NCBI GenBank assembly: GCA_018292915.2
Contig: JACVVK020000225.1
Span: 300,001-364,000 of the forward strand
DNA from: Batillaria attramentaria
Taxonomy: Eukaryota; Mollusca; Gastropoda; Batillariidae
DNA length: 64,000 nt
Direction of reading: 5' to 3'
The notes beneath the pieces were generated by a model. The model was not told where the DNA came from. It worked only from the letters and a program-made list of their open reading frames with translations, and searched no databases. This document shows, piece by piece, positions 13,145 to 62,230 of this stretch. The translations under genes and the position numbers were made by a program. Within the stretch, counting starts at the first letter, position 1. The number at the start of each line of letters is the position of its first letter.

Positions 13145-13408
13145 CGACAGCATCTTCAGTTTCCTGAAAGAGGTCAACCTGTTCTATAAATTATAGACTT
13201 CAAACATTCAGTCTTTCACTGACCACCCAGTCTTTTTTTTCTTTTTTTTTTTAAAGACACGATAGATTTTTCATATTTATTTACAATCTGTGTTTTAAAG
13301 TGGGAATTTTTATGTTTTATAGGACCTGGCAGGAAGGGACTTTCATGAGCCGCGAATTAGCCTTTGTTGCTTGCGCGGCGTTAAGCCCTAAATAACTAAC
13401 TAACTAAC
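13145..13408 (+). mobile_element. 5'-truncated retroposon with (TAAC)n tail
   Basis: TGAAGTCTGTAGA occurs at 13132-13144 and again at 13409-13421, a 13 bp target-site duplication. The insert ends GAGCCGCGAATTAG...TTGCTTGCGCGGCGTTAAG followed by CCCTAAA and four TAAC units. GCCGCG and CGCGGC can pair as a terminal stem. The same 3' end, on the other strand, closes the insertion at 51854-52977. This fits a non-LTR element or a SINE mobilised by it. Confidence 0.8.
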
Positions 13409-16742: not shown

Positions 16743-17248
16743 CCGGCCCCCGTAGTGTAGTGGTTAGCACTTCGGATCATGGACCGGGAGACCCGGGTTC
16801 GAATCCCAGCCGAGGCAAGCGGGATTTTTCCTACCTAGGTCGGCTCCTACCCAGAGTGGGTGTGCTATGGCCCCAATGGGGAGGCTGTTGCCACACAGCC
16901 GAGCTTCACCCACTTCACGGGTGCGACTTTGGGGGTGCTTCCCTTGGTATGACACGTCTTATGATGTGGATGATTACACGGCCGGCACCGCAGGTGCCAA
17001 GTTCCCGGGCCTGGTTAATGCCGGGATATTTATGACAGGAAGCGTGGAATGCGGCCCTGTCCCGCAGTCCCAAACCACATGGACCTCCATAGCATCATCT
17101 TACTATCATCCTCATCTCCATCATCATGCATAATAAAAATTGTCCCAGCTTCCGAGTCCTCCGTGGGTTCCACCCATGACCTGGGAGGAACACCACTGGA
17201 GCTGGCAAAGAGTTGGGGCAGCAAAAAAAACAAAAAAAAATAAAAAAA
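16743..17248 (+). mobile_element. Complete tRNA-derived SINE (family B) with target-site duplication
   Basis: AATGTGGATAAGA flanks the element at 16730-16742 and 17249-17261. The head contains a pol III A box, TAGTGTAGTGG (16753-16763), and a B box, GGTTCGAATCC (16796-16806), in a tRNA-like region that most resembles tRNA-Asp/Glu. The acceptor and anticodon stems are degenerate, so this is not a working tRNA gene. A body of about 430 bases follows and the element ends in a long interrupted A run with single C and T interruptions. The perfect duplication suggests a fairly recent insertion. Confidence 0.92.
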
Positions 17249-19859: not shown

Positions 19860-20755
19860 TGTGTTAGTCAAAACCGGCTGACTGCTCGGTCGCTCTTTGT
19901 GTGTCACGTCACAACCCGGCGGTCATCAGTCCCCGCGCGCGGCCGCGCTGACTGAGAACTTTGCCACGTGTTGGAAGAGGTTGTTGCCAACTGTTTCATC
20001 CGCCGTTGTCTTTGAGTAACAAGTTGTGGTGATGCTTGATTCATTCAAACTTTTGGTCGGTAACAGCATAATGAGCCTCGATCACTGAACGCTTCTCCCG
20101 CTTAGCAACCAGGGACGCTTTCCGTCTATCGTCCACGCATGAAAACTCACAGTGGGGAAACACCACACTGGGCATGTGCGCAGCGAGCCAATCGCTGCGC
20201 AGTTTACAGCGAGGCGCGCGCAGACGTAGTCGCGTGGCAGCTAAATTTGGAAACGGTGATCTCATCGCTCGTTGAGGGCTATGCGCAGGTCAGGCAAGTA
20301 AACAGTTCATTCATATCAGCCGCGAGCGACTGGCGTGGTGCGTGAGCGTGAGAGGCAGAGAGAGAGAGAGAGGGGAGAGAGGAAAGAAAGAAGGCTGAAG
20401 GATTTTTACCTCACATCTACGTCGAAGTCGCTACGAATCTATTGTGGTTATATCTTTGTTACTTCATTTGGATGTGTTCAAACTACGAGCGACCGCATTC
20501 TGAGAACTCAGCGATCGACTTTTGGATTACCCAAGCGGTGATTTCCGTGTGACGCAGTGCTCGGCGCTAGTGTTACAGGTGTTTTGTGTGCCGCACATAT
20601 TACAGCGCTGACAGAATCAAAACAAAGCATCGCCAGGGGAGGGAGGCTTCGAGAAGGAAAGCACGCTTCGTCCTTCCTTCCTCGAACGGAGGAGTGAGTA
20701 TACAACCTTGTTGCTTCAACACCCATCATGCTAGCGTGGCTCTGAGTCTAAACCT
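19860..20755 (+). promoter_or_regulatory. Probable promoter and 5' UTR of the DUSP10-like gene
   Basis: The stretch is GC- and CpG-rich compared with its surroundings and leads directly into the first coding exon. It contains a CRE-like TCACGTCA near 19908 and a perfect 10 bp inverted repeat, TGCGCAGCGA / TCGCTGCGCA (20177-20186, 20192-20201), whose 5-base loop contributes to a CCAAT box. A GA-rich tract lies at 20341-20395. No TATA box is convincing. The transcription start is not visible from sequence; I infer it lies downstream of the CCAAT box. Confidence 0.5.
20728..20745 (+). CDS. Upstream micro-ORF (5 codons) in the 5' leader
   Basis: ATG CTA GCG TGG CTC TGA ends 10 bases before the first in-frame ATG of the phosphatase. 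It has an A at -3, whereas the ATG at 20756 has a C at -3. If the leader is transcribed, scanning ribosomes would meet this micro-ORF first, which could lower use of 20756 and favour the ATG at 20882. Translation itself is not shown. Confidence 0.35.
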   Translation: MLAWL

Positions 20756-21572
20756 ATGACGACGCTGTGCGTTGCGGACTCTGCATTACCTCATCACCAT
20801 CATCATCACCACCTGCATCACCATTTCCACCAGCAGCTTGTTGAGCTGGCTCACACCGACTGCAGCAGCCGGGCCGACACCATGCCAGAGTCGGGCGACA
20901 TCGAAGTCCTGGCCCCACCTCGTCTTCATCTCGCATCCCGCCGGAGATTCGACCTCAAGCTGGACCTGGCCTCGGCTCTCACGGGCCGGGAGAGGGGAGA
21001 GAAGAAACTGCGGTTAGATTTCCTGTCCAACCCGGGCATCCTGACGTCCAAACTGGCCGACGGTTGCAGCAGCTGCATAGGACAGTCGTGTCATAGTCAC
21101 CAACAGGCGGACGACTCGCCCACAGACCCGCCCCACGCCGACAGAACGGTGAAGACAACCACGTGCACATTCCGACCCATCTCGGACTCGGACCGAACGT
21201 TGCCGGAGAGTCCGTCAGCGTTCAGGACTATCATGGGCAGTGAACTGGCGGCCAAGCTCCGCAAGTCTCGCCCTGTCCTTGTGATTGACTGTCGACCTTT
21301 CCTAGCCTACAACTCTCAGCACATTCAGGGGGCACTCAACATCAGCTGCACGGACCGTTTCAACCGCCGTCGTCTTCAGCAGGGTAAGGTCGGGGTGCTG
21401 GACCTTCTAGCGGCCACGCACGGCAAGGACCATTTCCGACGACGTCACTTCCGGGACATCGTGCTGTACGATGATAGCAGCAGTGGGGAGAAAGTGCCAG
21501 AGACCGACAGCGCCCTCCACATAGTCCTCAGCACGCTACACAGGGAAGGGAGACAACCAGCTGTCCTTCAAG
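20756..21572 (+). CDS. DUSP10: DUSP10-like exon 1: His-rich N-terminus and rhodanese/CH2 domain
   Basis: Coding part of exon 1, residues 1-272 plus one base. The donor is AAG|GTGAGT at 21573. The N-terminal 160 residues include His runs from CAC/CAT codons and a Cys-rich patch near 104-112. The conserved part starts at about 160 ([20 protein letters not shown]). The ATG at 20756 is the longest start but has a weak context (CCT ATG A). ATG 20882 (residue 43, CACC ATG C) has a better context and is an equally plausible start, giving 433 residues. Confidence 0.9.
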
Positions 21573-22161
21573 GTGAGTCAGCCAGAAACTTGGGGGGGGG
21601 GGGGGAGGCAGGATGTATGTCCATGTGCCTTGTTTATCCTGTCATTTCGCAATGGCTTTGATGGACCGAAGGCAACATTGTACCATTCTAATCTGTTAAT
21701 TTTATTCCAACCTGCACACACGCGTTCATTTGTTTTCTAGCTTGCAAACATGCTGCCTTTTTTTTTATTCGGTATTGCTGAACAGTTTAGATCATTTATT
21801 TGTCCTGTTGCCATTGAAAATCCCTGTGGTGGTGTTTCTCAGCTGATCACAACTTCCAGGGAAACTGCTTCTCCTCAGTCAGGATACAAGCACTGATGCA
21901 TGCACGCATGTCGTAAGACTTCTAGTCCGGCTCAAGTCAATGCTGGTTCTAAGTAGACCAAGAAAAGATGAGACATAGCCCTGGGAACACAAGTTCCTCT
22001 GATCCTGAAATAAAGTGGGGGGGATTCGCGAAGGTAGTGAGTGATGTAATGTTGAGCGGAGGTCGGGAAACAAGGGTGGTGTGGTGTAGTTGGCGGAGAA
22101 GAAAGCCCTTGTTCCCACTTAGTCCCGAACAGCAGGGAGTCTACTGCTGCCGATGCTCGAA

Positions 22162-47191: not shown

Positions 47192-47258
47192 TCCCCCGCC
47201 GTAGATGGGGAGCCGGGGTGGCCGAATGGTAGAGCGTAGAACTTCTAATGCTCGGGTC

Positions 47259-48630
47259 CACAGTGGCGATACTACGTCACAACATGGCGGAAAATATCGT
47301 TGAGGTGGGAGCAAAAATACCGATAGTTGGTCCCAAAGTGGACAAATTACTCCACGAAAGGGACACGGTTGTGACTTTGAATGAATGAGCGTTCGTTTTG
47401 AAGAAACTTATGAGTGTTATGAACCAAACGGCGTGTGCATATCGCCTACAGTCGCCACAAACTCGACCGGAATCGGCCGTTGCTCAGTGAAGAATTTGAA
47501 AATGACGACACAAATCCATGCTAAACGCCTCAGCTAGCCAACAGCGAACCTAAACTTCTATTGCAGACGAGAACCTGTGTCCGTTACTTACTAATCAAGC
47601 CGCACTGGCATGCCTGTGAAGGCTTGTTTTGTCTCTGGCTTCCTTTCTTTCCCTGCCCTCGGCACACTATGAGGTGCTGACTGGCTGTGTGGACAGTTAG
47701 TGTGGGAGGTGGCGATTTTGTGAGCACAGCGTGTGCACTGAACGATCCACAAAACAAGTCCATATCGAAGAAAGGACATTTTTTACACAAGAGTAAACTG
47801 TCCAGATTCGGTATTAAAGTTTTGAATTGGGTTATACAACTATTTGCTATATATTTCAAGTAAACACTTACCAACCACCCGAATTCTCGATCCTCACTAG
47901 GCTGATATTATCTCTGCTTCCAGCATGACAAAATGACTGCATGTCCTGAAAACGCATGCACAGTTTAATTTGGGAGCAGATTATTTATTTAGAACTAAAT
48001 TACTCCCCTCCTCACACAAAGTTTGCATTATTATGACAAGGTCGTGCTCCATGGCATTTGAATTTTACGTCAGTTCTCTGTTTCTCATTGGAATGAAGCC
48101 TTTCTAAGACACGTAGGCGACGAAATGTTCACGACATAGTGTTGAAGACCTAACAAAAACAAAACTAAAAAAAAAAGGCAAAAATCCGCAATGACGAAAC
48201 ATGTCGCACATTTGCAAACAGATACTGAAACTGAGTAACCAGATAATGCCATTTCTGAACACAACACTTTATTTTCACTGCCTTCTGCTTTTAAAAACTA
48301 TGTGCAATGCAACCATAACAGTACCCCCCCCCCCAAAAAAAAAAAGAAAAAAAAAAAAGAAGATAAATTGAAAGTGACAAGCACAGGCGTTTTATCTTCA
48401 CACGAAAACGGAACATAAATCATTTCAGAATCTGGCATTTTTGCGAAAAGCTTTTGAAACTATGTGCGATGCAGTCACAATGCAATGCAAACGCACACAA
48501 AAAACTTTTATCATGATGAATTGAAAGTAACAAGCACAAGCTTTTGACCTTCCTACAGAAACGGAAAATAAGTCATTACAGGATTTGGCGATTTTTTTTT
48601 TTTTTTTTAGCTCACTTGTGTAACAAAAGG
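47259..48630 (+). repeat. Left terminal inverted repeat arm
   Basis: 47259 to about 48010 matches 53743 down to about 52991 at roughly 95% or better by eye. About 48010-48630 matches 51840 down to about 51430 with more differences, including C and A runs present only on the left. Both tips encode a short frame starting MAENIVEVGAK in a strong start context (47284-47388 on the left), but nothing shows it is translated. Confidence 0.9.
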
Positions 48631-48654
48631 GAGAATATGTAATAACCCTCCGTC

Positions 48655-48716
<62 letters not shown>
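48655..48716 (+). repeat. (GT)n inside the transposon arm
   Basis: About 29 GT units. The mirror position in the right arm (about 51380-51400) has only about eight CA units plus CAGACAGACA. A second (GT)n of about 28 units is at 49187-49242. Confidence 0.93.
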
Positions 48717-48718
<2 letters not shown>

Positions 48719-48789
48719 GCATTAGCTTTTTCTCAGAATCTGCAAACAGCAGAGGCACCAAATTAACAGTCATGAGCCCTTCCAAAAAA

Positions 48790-49184
48790 TACCATTTTGA
48801 ATGACCTTGACTCCATGTCAAGGTCACTATAGCTGTCTATTTAGAAAGCTCACATTAGCATTTTCTCGGAATCTGCAAACACCAGAGTTTTTAAACTTTG
48901 CATGATGATAGACATTGACAGAGCTTTAGAGAAATACCTGTATTCAAGCTTGTAACATGGTTAGGCCATACAAGCTATTTTTTGGGAAACCTTAACATTG
49001 GCTTTTCCTCAGAAACAACAACAGCAGAGGCACCAACCCTGGCTTGCTACTAGAAGTGATTAGACCTATGCAAACATACGATTTTAAATGACCTTGACTC
49101 AAGTCAAGGTAATTAAAGCAGTCTGACTTATGACTAGTCTGCCATTGTTTCAGTGCCTTTGACTGCAATCTGCATCGGGCTGGG

Positions 49185-49244
<60 letters not shown>

Positions 49245-51270
49245 CGCTATGAGTTGTTTTCAGGCGAGATTAAGCGCTAAACAAGTACTATTCATTATTA
49301 TTATTATTAAGTTTACATCTGCACTTTCTCAGAGGCATCAAATTCTGCATGACAGACAGGCACTGGTAACACCTTTGCTGGCATACATTCAGTGACTTTC
49401 AGTCGAGGTCAAGGCTATACAAGATGTTTTGGGGAAACTTCAACAGTGGCACTTTCTCCGAAACAACGAACAGAAGAGGCACCAAATGAGGCATGATGGT
49501 AAACCAAGAGACCTATGCAGACATGCCTTTTTGAATGACCTTGATTCAAGGTCAACGTCAGTAAAGTTATCTGTTGTGAATTTTAACATTAGCGGTTTCG
49601 CAGGAACTACAAAATTAATACTAGAGGTGTCAAACTTGGCATAATATAGACATTGATGAGATCCTTACCAACAGATCTCATTTCAATGACTTTGACCCAA
49701 GGTCAAGGCCATACAAACTGTTTGGGGGGAAAACTGTACTAAGAACATCAGAGACACCACTTGGAATGATGATATACAGTGATAGGACACAAACATAATC
49801 TTTTGAATGAACTTGACCCACGACACAAGTGAGCCACGGAGATTTTTGCCTCTCTACTTGTAAAAAGCTTTCTGCTTTGCAAACTATGTGCAATGCGATC
49901 ATAACAGCACCAAAACTAGAGGAGCAAAGCCCCCTTGTCTCACTTGTAAGATGGGTCAAGGTCATTCAAAAGAGTATGTTTGTAAAGCTCTTACCACTAT
50001 CCTGAAGTAAGGTGTCTCTTGTGTTCATAGTTCCTAAGAAAACGGCAAATGGCAATAAAGCAGTTTTCCCAGGACAGCTTCTATGACCTTGACCTTGGGT
50101 CAAGGTCATTCAAATGAGATCTGTAAGTGAAGAGCTTATCAGTGACTACGCCAAGTTTGATAGCTCTAGTTTTTGTAGTTTCTGTACAAATGGTAATGGG
50201 GTGGGGTGAGTGTTTAGGAGTTTAACGTCCTTTTCCACCAGGTAAGGGTGATATCAAAGACGGGGCAACGAGAAAAAAGCCAGCACAATATTTGGCCCCA
50301 GCCAGGATTCGAACTCACGACCTGAGGCATTGAAAGTCCAACGCTCTACCATTCGGCTATCCCGGCTCCCACACAATGGTAATGTACAATTTCACAACAG
50401 ACAACTGTAATTACCTTGACCTTGAGTCAAGGTCATTCAAATGGGTATGTCTGCATAGGTCTCGTTGCTGTCTATCATTGTGCCTTGTTTGGTGCCTCTG
50501 CTGTTTGTTGTTTCCAACAAAATGTTAACGTTAAAGTCTCCGCAAAACATGTTAAATGGCCTTGACCTTGACTCAAGGAAATTGAATACAAGTAAGCCAG
50601 TACAGGTTTTGTCAATGTCTATCATCATGCAAAGTTTGATGCCTCTGGTACCCCTACATTCTGAGAAAATGTCAATTTTAAATTTCCCATGAGACAGCTT
50701 TGATGACCTTGAACTTCACTCAAGGTCATTAAAATGGTTTTTTTTTAAAGGTCTTACTGCTTTTTATCAGCAAGCCAGGTTTGGTGCTTCTGCTGTTTAT
50801 TGTTTCTGAGAGAATGCCAATGTTAAGGTTTTGGAAGGTTTTCCGCAAAACTGCTTGTATGTCCTTGAGCTTGACTCAAAGTCACTGAATATAGGTATGT
50901 CAGTAAAGGTGCTGGCATCATGCAGTTTGATGTCTCTTGCTTTTCTAGATTCTGAGAAAATGCCAATGTAAAATTTCCAAATTGACAGCTTTTGTGATAT
51001 GGTCTTATGGTTCTCTATCAGCGTGCCGAGTTTGGTGCCTCTGCTATTCATTGTTTCTGAGAAAATGCCAATGTTAAGGTTTTGAAAGGTTTTCCGCAAA
51101 ACAGCTTGCATGGCCTTGACCTTGACTCAAAGTCACTGAATACAAGTATGTCAGTAAAGGTATTGTCAATGTCTATAATCATGCAAAGTTTGATGTCTCT
51201 GGCTTTTCTAGATTATGAGAAGATGCCAAAGAAAAATTTCCATATAGACAGCTTTCCGTGGGTCAAGGTC
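48790..51270. repeat. Interior repeats (about 170-200 bp) with nuclear-receptor-type half-sites
   Basis: Diverged units share CTCAGAAACAACGAACAGCA, GAGGCACCAAA, GCATGATGATAGACATTGA and a TGACCTTGA...TCAAGGTCA pair. Units left of about 49900 read on the + strand and those to the right on the minus strand, so the interior is itself an inverted array. About a dozen loci carry TGACCTTGA and/or TCAAGGTCA, the extended half-site bound by ERR/FTZ-F1-type nuclear receptors. Binding is only a possibility. Confidence 0.75.
50199..50374 (-). mobile_element. tRNA-SINE family A, complete copy
   Basis: AATGGTAATG flanks the element at 50189-50198 and 50375-50384. On the minus strand it runs GGAGCCGGGATAGCCGAATG (A box), GAGTTCGAATCCTGGC (B box), CTTTGATATCACCCTTACC and GTGGAAAAGGACGTTAAACT. 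At about 175 bases it serves as the reference for the broken copies in this window. Confidence 0.9.
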
Positions 51271-51853
51271 AATCATTATGGTATATTTTGAAAGGTCTTA
51301 TGGCTTTCTATCAGCATGCCAATTTTGGTGTCTCTGCTATTTGTAGATTCAGAGAAAAGGCCAATGTTAAGGTTTACTGCGGACACACACACACACACCA
51401 CACAGACAGACAACGGAGGGTTATTACATAGACTCACTTTGTTACACAAGTAAGCCAAAAAATGATTTAGTTCCCTTTTTGGTAGGATAAACGCTACTTT
51501 CAATTCATCATGATGAAGTTTTTTTGTACTGTTATGATTGCATTGCACATAGTTTCAAAAACAGAAGGCTTTGAAAAATAAAGTTTTGTGTTCAGAAAGG
51601 GCATTAGCTGGTTACTTTCAGTATGTGTTCGTAAATCATGTGTGACATTTTCAGTCACTGCGGATTTTTGGCTTGCTTTTTTTTTTTTTTTTGGGGGGGG
51701 GGGGGGGGGGTTGAGGTCTACAACACTACTTTGTGAACATTTCGGCGCCCACGTGTCTCAGAAAGACTTCATTCCAATGAGAAACAGAGAACTGACTAAA
51801 AGTTTAACTCCGTAGAGCACTTGTCATACTAATGGAAGTTTTGTGTGCGGAGG

Positions 51854-52977
51854 AGTGAGTGAGTTTTTAGGGCTTAAAACCGCGCAAGCCACAAAGACTA
51901 ATTCGCGGCTGAGTGTGCCTGCACTACATGAAAAAAAAAAAAAAAATGTAACGTTGGACAAAGGATGCAAACTGGTCTACGGGGCAATATAAACCTAGGA
52001 CATGCAGGAGACGCTGCACCTTCATGCTAATTTCTCGAACTCCCGGTTACAAAAAAGCGTAGAAAACAAATGACAATTACAACTAGGTAAAACAAAGATA
52101 AATACTAAACGCATATACAGCAAATATTGCAACTTATCATCTCCTAGGCGCAATATACCAATTCGCAGCATATGCCCAACATCACTTATTCCTAACCACT
52201 GGTAGTGCAGACGTACGTGAGGGGTTAAAAAGAAGAAATATACAGTCAAACCTGTGTAAGGCGGTCACCCAAGGGACTGGGTAAAACTGACCACCTTAGA
52301 CAGGGTGACCGGGTTATCCAGGGTGTCATGTCAACAGCTAGTGTGTCAGGGGATCCTCTGGGGTGACCAGGTTAGACAGTGGTTTGGCTTATACAGGTGA
52401 CCGCCTTGGCAGGTTCGACTGCAGAAAGGGCCGAACTCAGAAATCAGCTGAGAGAAGAGAGGAAGGACAGAGCGGCTAAATTCGGGAGGTTTTAAAGAGA
52501 AAGATACAGGTGAATGGGCTGGTGAGGAATAGACAGAGAGGTACGAAGGAAAATTCCTTAGTTGCCAATGAAGACAACATGCCTGGGAGGCAGTTGGAGA
52601 ACAGACCGCTCCAACACGGAACCTCCCCGCCTTGAGGCGGTTTGGGAAAACGCACCAGAGAGGGGTGCGTTGTGAAGGTCTTCCACATGACGGGTGTTCA
52701 GCAGCACCAGCAGGGCGCTGCGAACAAAGCCCGCCAGGGTGAAGACCAGGTGAGGGGAATCCAGTGAAGTCGGCCTTCAGAAATGACCCTCAGATGTCTC
52801 ACTGGACCAAGGGTCAGCAGACACCCGCTTACTGACCTCCCCCCGGAGGAGACTTTAAGAGAGCAAAAGACAGGTGAATGGACCGAGGGAGGCAGAAATA
52901 AGAGTAAAGAAAGAGCAAAAGGGGTGGGCAAGCTTGGCGAAATCAGCCCCGCCGCGTGAAGGCGAGCCCATGGGGCC
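51854..52977 (-). mobile_element. Retroposon inserted in the right arm
   Basis: TTGTGTGC(G/A)GAGG lies at 51841-51853 and 52978-52990, a 13 bp duplication with one mismatch, and the arm alignment resumes exactly on either side. On the minus strand the insert ends CAGCCGCGAATTAGTCTTTG, then GGCTTGCGCGGTTTTAAGCC and a short (ACTC)n tail. This is the same 3' end as at 13145-13408. The body has two related segments (near 52490 and 52850) containing ACAGGTGAATGG. No reverse-transcriptase ORF is recognised. Confidence 0.8.
52243..52421. mobile_element. Tc1/mariner-type MITE inside the retroposon
   Basis: Terminal repeats CAGTC(A/G)AACCTG...AAGGCGGTCACC occur at both ends of a 179 bp non-coding element. 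TA precedes the left end and CA, a probable mutated TA, follows the right. Confidence 0.75.
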
Positions 52978-53950
52978 TTGTGTGCAGAGGGGAGTAATTT
53001 AGTTCTAAATAAAAAATAATCTGCTCCCAAATTAAACTGTGCATGCGTTTTCAGGGCATGCAGTTATTTTGTCATGCTGGAAGCAGAGATAATATCAGCC
53101 TAGTGAGGATCGAGAATTCGGGTGGTTGGTAAGTGTTTTATTTGAAATATATAGCAAATAGTTGTATAACCCAATTCAAAACTTTAATACCGAATCTGGA
53201 CAGCTTCCTGATGTGTAAAAAAATGTCCTTTCTCCGATATGGACTTGTTTTGTGGATCGTTCAGTGCACACGCTGTGCTCACAAAATCGCCACCTCCCAC
53301 ACTAACTGTCCACACAGCCAGTCAGCACCTCATAGTGTGCCGAGGGCAGGGAAAGAAAGGAAGCCAGAGACAAAACAAGCCTTCACAGGCATGCCAGTGC
53401 GGCTTGATTAGTAAGTAACGGACACAGGTTCTCGTCTGCAATAGAAGTTTAGGTTCGCTGTTGGCTAGCTGAGGCGTTTAGCATGGATTTGTGTCGCCAT
53501 TTTCAAATTCTGCACTGAGCAACGGCCGATTCCGGTCGAGTCTGTGGCGACTGTAGGCGATATGCACACGCCGTTTGGTTCATAGCACTCATGAGTTTCT
53601 TCGAAACGAACGCTCATTCATTCAAAGTCACAACCGTGTCCCTTTCGTGGAGTAATTTGTCCACTTTGGGACCAACTAGCGGTATTTTTGCTCCCACCTC
53701 AACGATATTTTCCGCCATGTTGTGACGTAGTATCGCCACTGTGGGGTCGAGAGTTCGTATCCCGGCTGGCGCCAAATATTTGTGCTGTTTTTTTCATCGC
53801 TGCCCCGTCTTTGATATCACCCGTATGTGGTGGAAAAGGACGTTAAACCCCCAAACATCCATCCATCCCCCGCCGTAGGTGGCTGAGACTGATTTCAGGG
53901 GGGACATCATCAGTGTGTGTGTCACTGTGTATGTGCATGCGTGCGTGCAG

Positions 53951-60847: not shown

Positions 60848-61610
60848 GGGCCGGTGCACACTAGCGTCGGCGCTACATCGCACGCACCACGCGTGTAGCG
60901 CCTTGCGTGCCTCAAGCACAGTGAGAGCTCTCACACGTGGAGTAAACGCACGCCGCGTCATCTGGCCACTGACGAGCCAGTGCTTCTGAGTGTGCGATGG
61001 AATGCGAAATTAGGGATCTGAAACGTATCATAAACTTCAGGCTGCTTGTTCGCAGTCTGAATAGAGACTGGTGATCGAGGCCACGATAACTTGATAGAAT
61101 TTAGCTACAACAAACCCGGCTTTGCTGTAGAATGATATCGTAGACGATGAGAGACCCGGCAGTGACAACACACGGCGGTTCGGTCAGTGTGTATAGTTTT
61201 ATTTACTCCATTTACGTATTTACCGTAGTGTGAGTCAGCGGAGAGTGACACAACAAAACGGCATACCCGTCGACTGTGATATGAATCGAGCTGAAAATTG
61301 TAGAGGTTTTCCTGTTCACGATACAGGTCGATGAGGCGAAACATTTCGTCTTCGCGCAATTCCGCCATCTTGGAAGAGAAGAGGATGGCGAGTCAGCCCT
61401 TGCTGGCTGGCTCTTCTGATCGGCTGAAGCCACGCTACACGCGCGCGTCAAGCGCGCCGAATAGAACAGTTCCTATCCTCGCGCAACAGAATTTTTCAAT
61501 CGTGCTACGTCTGTCGCTTCGCGCTTCAAGGGGTTGCATACGTAGATGCGCGACAAAATTTGCTGCACGCGTGGCGCGACAATGTCGCATGACGCCAGTG
61601 TGCAAGGGCC
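60848..61610 (-). mobile_element. PIF-Harbinger-type element 1 with MADF-like exon remnant
   Basis: The 763 bp element has imperfect terminal inverted repeats (left GGGCCGGTGCACACTAGCGT, right end complementary to GGCCCTTGCACACTGGCGTC) and a TTA duplication (60845-60847, 61611-61613). TWA duplications with GGGCC-type ends fit PIF-Harbinger. On the minus strand, ATG at 61368 opens a frame whose start, EMFRLIDLYREQENLYN, resembles a MADF DNA-binding domain, the partner protein encoded by Harbinger elements. It reaches a possible splice donor (CGACGG|GTATGC) within about 33 codons. No transposase is present. Confidence 0.65.
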
Positions 61611-61614
61611 TTAA

Positions 61615-62227
61615 AGGCCGTTCTTAACCGGGCGAACCACCAGTCTGGCGAACTTGTTCGGCGAACTGTGTATTGTATACGAACAGGGCAAGCGCACGCA
61701 CGTACATAGTTCCAGAGGTTCGGCCGGACTAGTTCTCTTTCTTAACCGACCGTTAATGATATGCATACGTCATCGCCCGAACAAGCGCGGACTCGGAAGT
61801 TGAGACAATCGTAAACAACCAAAATGGGCGCCTTCGTAGATCGAGACGACCAGGCATTTGCGGTAGTTATCGTTTTGAGTGAACTCTTGGAAGCCGAGGA
61901 AGAGGAGATAAGAGGAAAAGAGCGCAAGAGAGGGAAATGTGAAGTGAGTCGATAGCCGCGATGCCGTCCGCCATTTTCCTCAAGTTTGTACATGCGCACA
62001 ACAGCTCAGTCTCCCCGAGCAACCAATCAGAGCGCAGGATCGGCAAAAGGATCGCGAGGGTTCCCACGACACGCTATGCAGTCCTCGAACCTAGTTCGCC
62101 GAACCTTTCGAACCAGGGTTTCCGCACAAGTATTTGGTCGGTTAAGAAACAACGTGCGCGAACCTAGTTCGCCGTACTCTCCGAACCTAGTTCGCGAACC
62201 AAAAGTCTGCCCGGTTAAGAACGGCCT
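61615..62227 (+). mobile_element. PIF-Harbinger-type element 2, abutting element 1
   Basis: The 613 bp element has perfect 19-base ends, AGGCCGTTCTTAACCGGGC and its reverse complement, and a TAA duplication (61612-61614, 62228-62230). The inner flanks contain several TTCG(C/G)CGAAC-like and GAACCTAGTTCGC motifs. It shares the TTAA junction with element 1, so one inserted exactly at the duplication of the other. It is non-autonomous. Confidence 0.8.
61824..61955 (+). pseudogene. Possible transposase first-exon remnant inside element 2
   Basis: A 43-codon frame (MGAFVDRDDQAFAVVIVLSE, then LLEAEEEEIRGKERKRGKCE) ends just after GAA|GTGAGT, a good splice donor. An acidic run followed by a basic run near the N-terminus is typical of Harbinger (HARBI1-type) transposases. 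The catalytic part is absent. The resemblance is short and compositional, so this is a tentative call. Confidence 0.35.
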
Positions 62228-62230
62228 TAA

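Follow-up and report, generated by a model that had tools for sequence, protein, structure and literature searches.

A 64,000-nucleotide stretch of the Batillaria attramentaria genome, hereafter the window (NCBI GenBank assembly GCA_018292915.2, contig JACVVK020000225.1, positions 300,001 to 364,000 of the forward strand; coordinates below count from its first letter), contains a 6485 bp element at positions 47259-53743 that is inserted into a tRNA-type short interspersed element (SINE). The element is one giant decayed palindrome with refreshed tips, and each tip starts with CACAGTG. We regard it as probably a non-autonomous, foldback-type, Transib-like DNA transposon, that is, a likely but not a proven member of the Transib superfamily. 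We stop short of full membership because its target-site duplication can be read at two lengths and no transposase was seen.

The insertion is genuine, and its empty site can be read clearly. Rejoining the two flanks gives a continuous SINE with a single GGGTC, which retains its own 13-bp duplication; the original prediction, made from the letters alone, was right that the split SINE reveals the empty site. In all four other SINE pieces that align to this region the stretch is likewise present as a single copy, reading GGGTC in two of them and AGGTC and GGATC in the others. Elsewhere in the window, at 16746-16817, lies a tRNA-like sequence with an undetermined anticodon that is possibly a SINE head (Rfam tRNA, 35.6 bits; gathering score 29). 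The target and the duplications are arranged as follows:

47192-47204, no strand: left copy of the target SINE's 13-bp duplication, TCCCCCGCCGTAG, identical to the copy at 53866-53878
47205-47258, plus strand: left part of the split tRNA-type SINE, ending in GGGTC
47254-47258, no strand: left target-site duplication GGGTC (in a 3-bp parse, GGT at 47255-47257)
53744-53748, no strand: right target-site duplication GGGTC (in a 3-bp parse, GGT at 53745-53747)
53749-53865, plus strand: right part of the split SINE
53866-53878, no strand: right copy of the target SINE's 13-bp duplication

The terminal sequence CACAGTGGCGATACTACG reads inward from both ends of the element, at 47259-47276 on the plus strand and at 53726-53743 on the minus strand. 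When up to 3 mismatches are allowed, it matches the window at these two places only, both times exactly, while 0.01 matches are expected according to 100 shuffles. The first 60 bases are identical between the two arms, and GGGTC, with four of its five bases G or C, is found on either flank. Identical heptamer ends facing inward and GGGTC on both borders had been noted, and both are confirmed. The heptamer alone is common, with 17 occurrences of CACAGTG or its complement on the two strands of the window, and only its placement at both ends matters. With one mismatch or fewer, a degenerate form of the end pattern matches the window 12 times, where 6.27 matches are expected and 4 of 100 shuffles yielded at least as many; its only two exact matches are the ends of this element.

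The borders had also been called certain, which overstates the case. The base outside each CACAGTG is complementary to the other (C on the left, G on the right), and ends of CCACAGTGG with a 3-bp duplication, GGT, yield an identical empty site. This one-base ambiguity arises because the target is symmetric about the centre of the duplication, in four of the first five base pairs and in five of the first eight. DDE transposases often use symmetric targets, and the symmetry is thus a further point for the Transib-like reading. We prefer the 5-bp border without taking it as certain: because the 5-bp parse needs one chance match of a flanking base (1/4) and the 3-bp parse needs two (1/16), we infer that this locus favours 5 bp over 3 bp by about 4:1 before any superfamily prior, an estimate that assumes equal base frequencies and comes from one locus.

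Transib elements are characterized by an RSS-like heptamer starting with CAC, resembling the recombination signal sequence (RSS) of V(D)J recombination, and by GC-rich 5-bp duplications. Here the ends carry CACAGTG, although a 3-bp parse would start one C earlier, and GGGTC is exact and supported by the empty site, although the 3-bp parse fits equally at this locus. According to the passages cited here and below, the ends of most Transib families are symmetric and clearly similar to the heptamer, with little or no similarity to the nonamer, and a GC bias is seen in the duplications of ProtoRAG, Transib and RAG (PMC8289069). In Hztransib the inverted ends are long and the 5-bp duplication reads GCTCG (PMC1852546). 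Our element resembles Transib elements in its heptamer-like symmetric CAC..GTG ends without a nonamer and in its GC-rich, probably 5-bp duplication, and Hztransib in particular in its long inverted ends. It differs in that it has no recognisable transposase and in its body, a giant, decayed palindrome that contains repeat units; moreover, its duplication length comes from one locus with a one-base ambiguity, and some Transib ends are nonamer-like or asymmetric.

Several points weigh against this assignment. Beyond the alternative 3-bp parse, giant palindromes are typical of foldback elements and Mutator-like elements (MULEs), not of Transib, and the evidence comes from one locus, with no second copy and no transposase seen. 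At spacers of 20-22 bp the ends match the RSS nonamer at 2-4 of 9 positions, and the best match over spacers of 9-27 bp is 5 of 9; Transib ends with nonamer-like stretches past 20-22 bp spacers have been described (PMC8355894), which counts to some degree on the same side. The ends are asymmetric in every Subgroup I Transib and in part of Subgroup II (PMC9435367). When 39 genomes, including 27 bivalves and five gastropods, were surveyed, one Transib element was identified (PMC10294476). Finally, duplications of 5 bp are on record for hAT5 families (PMC12730594), and those of Ginger2 measure 4 or 5 bp (PMC10045372).

The comparison with V(D)J signals extends to the heptamer and ends there. CACAGTG equals the RSS consensus heptamer, while that of ProtoRAG is CACTATG (PMC8289069); for human immunoglobulin loci the commonest heptamer is given as CACAAAG (PMC8355894). 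In contrast to an RSS pair, the two ends of the element are identical and thus lack the 12/23 asymmetry. At the 12-bp spacer the nonamer matches at 3 of 9 positions and at the 23-bp spacer at 4 of 9, neither of which amounts to an RSS nonamer. As six random placements produce a match of at least 5 of 9 in 38% of trials, no nonamer stands above chance, and we reject an RSS nonamer at these ends.

Between its tips the element is built as follows:

47259-48019, plus strand: left outer arm (terminal inverted repeat), starting with CACAGTGGCGATACTACG; 17 substitutions over 761 aligned sites relative to the right outer arm
48020-49886, plus strand: inner left half of the palindrome, with TGACCTTGAC/AAGGTCA units and two TG runs; identity of aligned pieces with the right half 66-91%
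49887-51840, no strand: inner right half of the palindrome
50199-50374, minus strand: nested SINE of the target's family, flanked by a 10-bp duplication, AATGGTAATG, at 50189-50198 and 50375-50384
51854-52977, no strand: insertion of 1124 bp in the right arm, with no counterpart in the left arm
52978-53743, minus strand: right outer arm (terminal inverted repeat), with CACAGTGGCGATACTACG reading inward

The palindrome is centred at about 49.9-50.0 kb, and paired pieces cover most of both halves, so that long inverted arms fill most of the element as in foldback transposons. The inner pieces pair at the identities listed above, and repeats shift many of these pairings away from the main diagonal. 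The central repeat units, with their TGACCTTGAC/AAGGTCA motifs, are spaced near 146, 251 and 293 bp. The divergent repeat units at 48600-51460 are possibly an older element or a satellite captured between the arms. The 1124-bp insertion is flanked by 13-bp copies of TTGTGTGCRGAGG at 51841-51853 and 52978-52990, which agree at 12 of 13 positions. Because one of its ends matches positions 13348-13405 of the window (88% over 58 bp), this insertion is probably a dispersed retroelement. Just inside both ends of the element, at 47273-47290 and 53712-53729, lie TACGTCA and AACATGGCGG, the latter of which we take to be YY1-like. AANATGGCGG is present four times in the window against 0.32 expected, two of the copies lying beyond the element ends at 61362 and 61968. 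To judge from these motifs, the ends may carry a promoter.

How did the tips remain so alike in an otherwise decayed palindrome? The outer arms differ by the 17 substitutions listed, plus 6 gap columns, whereas inward of the 1.1-kb insertion 54 of 308 sites are different between the arms; the step between the two is sharp (17/761 vs 54/308, Fisher P = 1.5e-17). The longest identical run of the outer arms extends over 262 bp (random placement, P = 0.012), and their differences are clustered, four of the 17 falling within columns 533-540. Because arm identity drops sharply at the insertion, arm-to-arm gene conversion bounded by the insertion appears to be the best account of the alike tips. Selection for mobility could also keep the outer arms alike, but it predicts no step in identity at the insertion. 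Under conversion and selection alike, arm identity cannot date the last jump. The arms had been described as near-identical, which holds for the outer 761 aligned sites but not further in, where 54 of 308 sites differ and where, in the rest of the palindrome, aligned pieces are 66-91% identical. The suggestion of recent activity drawn from that likeness does not stand: the step at the insertion is what gene conversion would give, and we reject dating the activity from arm identity.

As far as the coding tests reach, the element is non-autonomous. A Pfam comparison of all six frames, read through stops, gave no match reaching the cut-off. Below the cut-off there were matches to WH1 (E 0.026), ZrgA (E 0.0036) and LCCL (E 0.38), and comparison of one of the six frames with the PDB gave a single match at E 0.38; we treat all of these as chance. 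Seventeen frames with a start codon are at least 60 residues long, the longest with 110 residues. In particular, the six-frame Pfam comparison recognised no transposase with a RAG1-like core in the element, although no Transib or RAG1 sequence served as a query. The 42-residue open frame that covers the left end, used as a protein query, returned no candidates, and this frame joined to the 92-residue arm frame returned one candidate, none at E of 1 or below; with frames this short, both are weak tests, and they support neither a coding start nor other copies. Exact searches with the 18-base end in viral contigs and with the 29-base end in genome contigs from viral or prokaryotic records also gave no matches, which says little about copies in the host.

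Among the alternatives, the one that survives best is a hAT element of the hAT5 type, whose transposase would make the 5-bp duplications and for which the resemblance to the V(D)J heptamer would be chance. We consider it unlikely. The ends of hAT elements usually read YARNG, whereas the third base of CACAG is C. Pfam recognised no hAT transposase in any of the six frames of the element, just as it recognised none of the Transib type. Apart from the duplication length noted above, which is as ambiguous for hAT5 as for Transib, the hAT5 reading is favoured by the repeat table of Biomphalaria, in which hobo-Activator is the largest named line of DNA transposons, at 2.93% of the genome, and the pooled class "Other (Mirage, P-element, Transib)" stands at 0.01% (PMC10903818). 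In the Nucella table, however, hobo-Activator, at 0.59%, falls below that pooled class, at 1.09% (PMC12506669).

Alternatively, the element could be a foldback or Mutator-like element with very long arms, moved by a transposase of the MULE group that left an unusual 5-bp duplication. The giant palindrome with repeated units inside speaks for this, and in structure the element is like foldback transposons such as Tetris of Drosophila virilis, in which long inverted arms make up most of the element and units are repeated. It differs from foldback elements in the sequence of its ends and in the length of its duplication. Most duplications of MULEs and foldback elements measure 8-10 bp and their ends are not typically CAC..GTG, which makes this origin improbable. 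A satellite DNA took building blocks from Tetris (PMC4079207), and duplications of the MuDR/IS256 type span 4-10 bp (PMC10045372), a range that includes 5 bp.

We give just as little credence to the possibility that the true ends are CCACAGTGG with a 3-bp GGT duplication from a 3-bp-duplication superfamily, the heptamer frame being an accident of parsing. Both parses reconstruct one and the same empty site, but the 3-bp parse requires the additional flanking-base coincidence discussed above. EnSpm/CMC, whose duplications are 2-4 bp long, was considered for its CAC ends and 3-bp duplication and rejected: starting at CAC gives 5 bp, and the 3-bp parse starts with CCAC. Duplications of 3 bp are known from Zator (PMC10045372) and from EnSpm and canonical Harbinger (PMC12730594). 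However, EnSpm ends are CAC..GTG and would not start at CC (PMC12730594), and a superfamily combining CC..GG ends with 3-bp duplications was not met in the passages on transposon superfamilies.

A derivative of a RAG-like (RAGL; RAG1L-RAG2L) transposon, mobilised by a mollusc RAGL recombinase, is very improbable, and we reject RAGL membership because the fit of the ends to the consensus is at chance level. Oysters and a ribbon worm have RAGL transposons with 5-bp duplications, Pinctada imbricata has non-autonomous RAGL elements, and the protostome end consensus is CACTWMCAAACKTYKBB (PMC7204232). Our element shares with them the initial CAC and, probably, the 5-bp duplication, whereas the rest of its end misfits the consensus: it matches at 7 of 17 positions, with 6.5 expected by chance, and reads GCG in place of the conserved AAA at positions 8-10. 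It agrees with the Aureococcus RAGL 13-mer (PMC9435367) at 4 of 13 positions. RAG1L and RAG2L gave no Pfam match at the cut-off in six frames, a result with which a non-autonomous derivative is still compatible. The element had been predicted to be "Transib/RAG-like" in a protostome; Transib holds as the best single fit, and the RAG-like half falls away.

The Transib-like reading suggests the following course of events. The element would have been cut and pasted into the SINE by a transposase acting in trans, most likely one from the Transib superfamily. This enzyme would have recognised the symmetric CACAGTG ends without a nonamer, broken the DNA at the 5' C of the heptamer and linked both ends to target positions separated by 5 bp, and repair of these 5-bp-spaced joins would have produced GGGTC at each side. 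Each outer arm may have templated the other by gene conversion, halting at the insertion that distinguishes the arms.

In the Batillaria attramentaria assembly, repeats make up 43.87% and DNA elements 3.81%, and the word Transib is absent from the main text of its description (PMC10382545). Among the titles and abstract starts of open-licence literature pairing Transib with molluscs or gastropods, no title describes this element. Two further features of the window are separate from it. A dual-specificity phosphatase 10-like gene has an exon at 20735-21661; across 96% of the queried stretch it shows 99% identity to BaRGS_008437 of Batillaria attramentaria, which assigns the window to this caenogastropod or a very near relative. 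A separate element resembling a miniature inverted-repeat transposable element occupies 61611-62230, with TTAA followed by (A)GGCCGTTCTTAACCGGGC at one end and the inverted copy GCCCGGTTAAGAACGGCC followed by TTAA at the other; its TTAA duplication points to a family of the piggyBac or Kolobok type.

As a single non-coding element, this insertion is otherwise ordinary. It may, as a more tentative suggestion, represent a gastropod transposon lineage not yet described, with an exact RSS heptamer, symmetric and nonamer-free ends, a giant foldback body and a Transib-like transposase that the snail genome still contains, mutual repair of the arms keeping the ends mobilisable. On a small scale, the step in identity at the insertion probably illustrates how a heterology bounds conversion between arms in nature. 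If the element is a Transib, it would add a caenogastropod case to a superfamily met once in the 39-genome, mostly mollusc survey (PMC10294476). Which part of the signal do Transib-type enzymes need? Symmetric ends with an exact RSS heptamer and without help from a nonamer would, under the same condition, pose this question directly.

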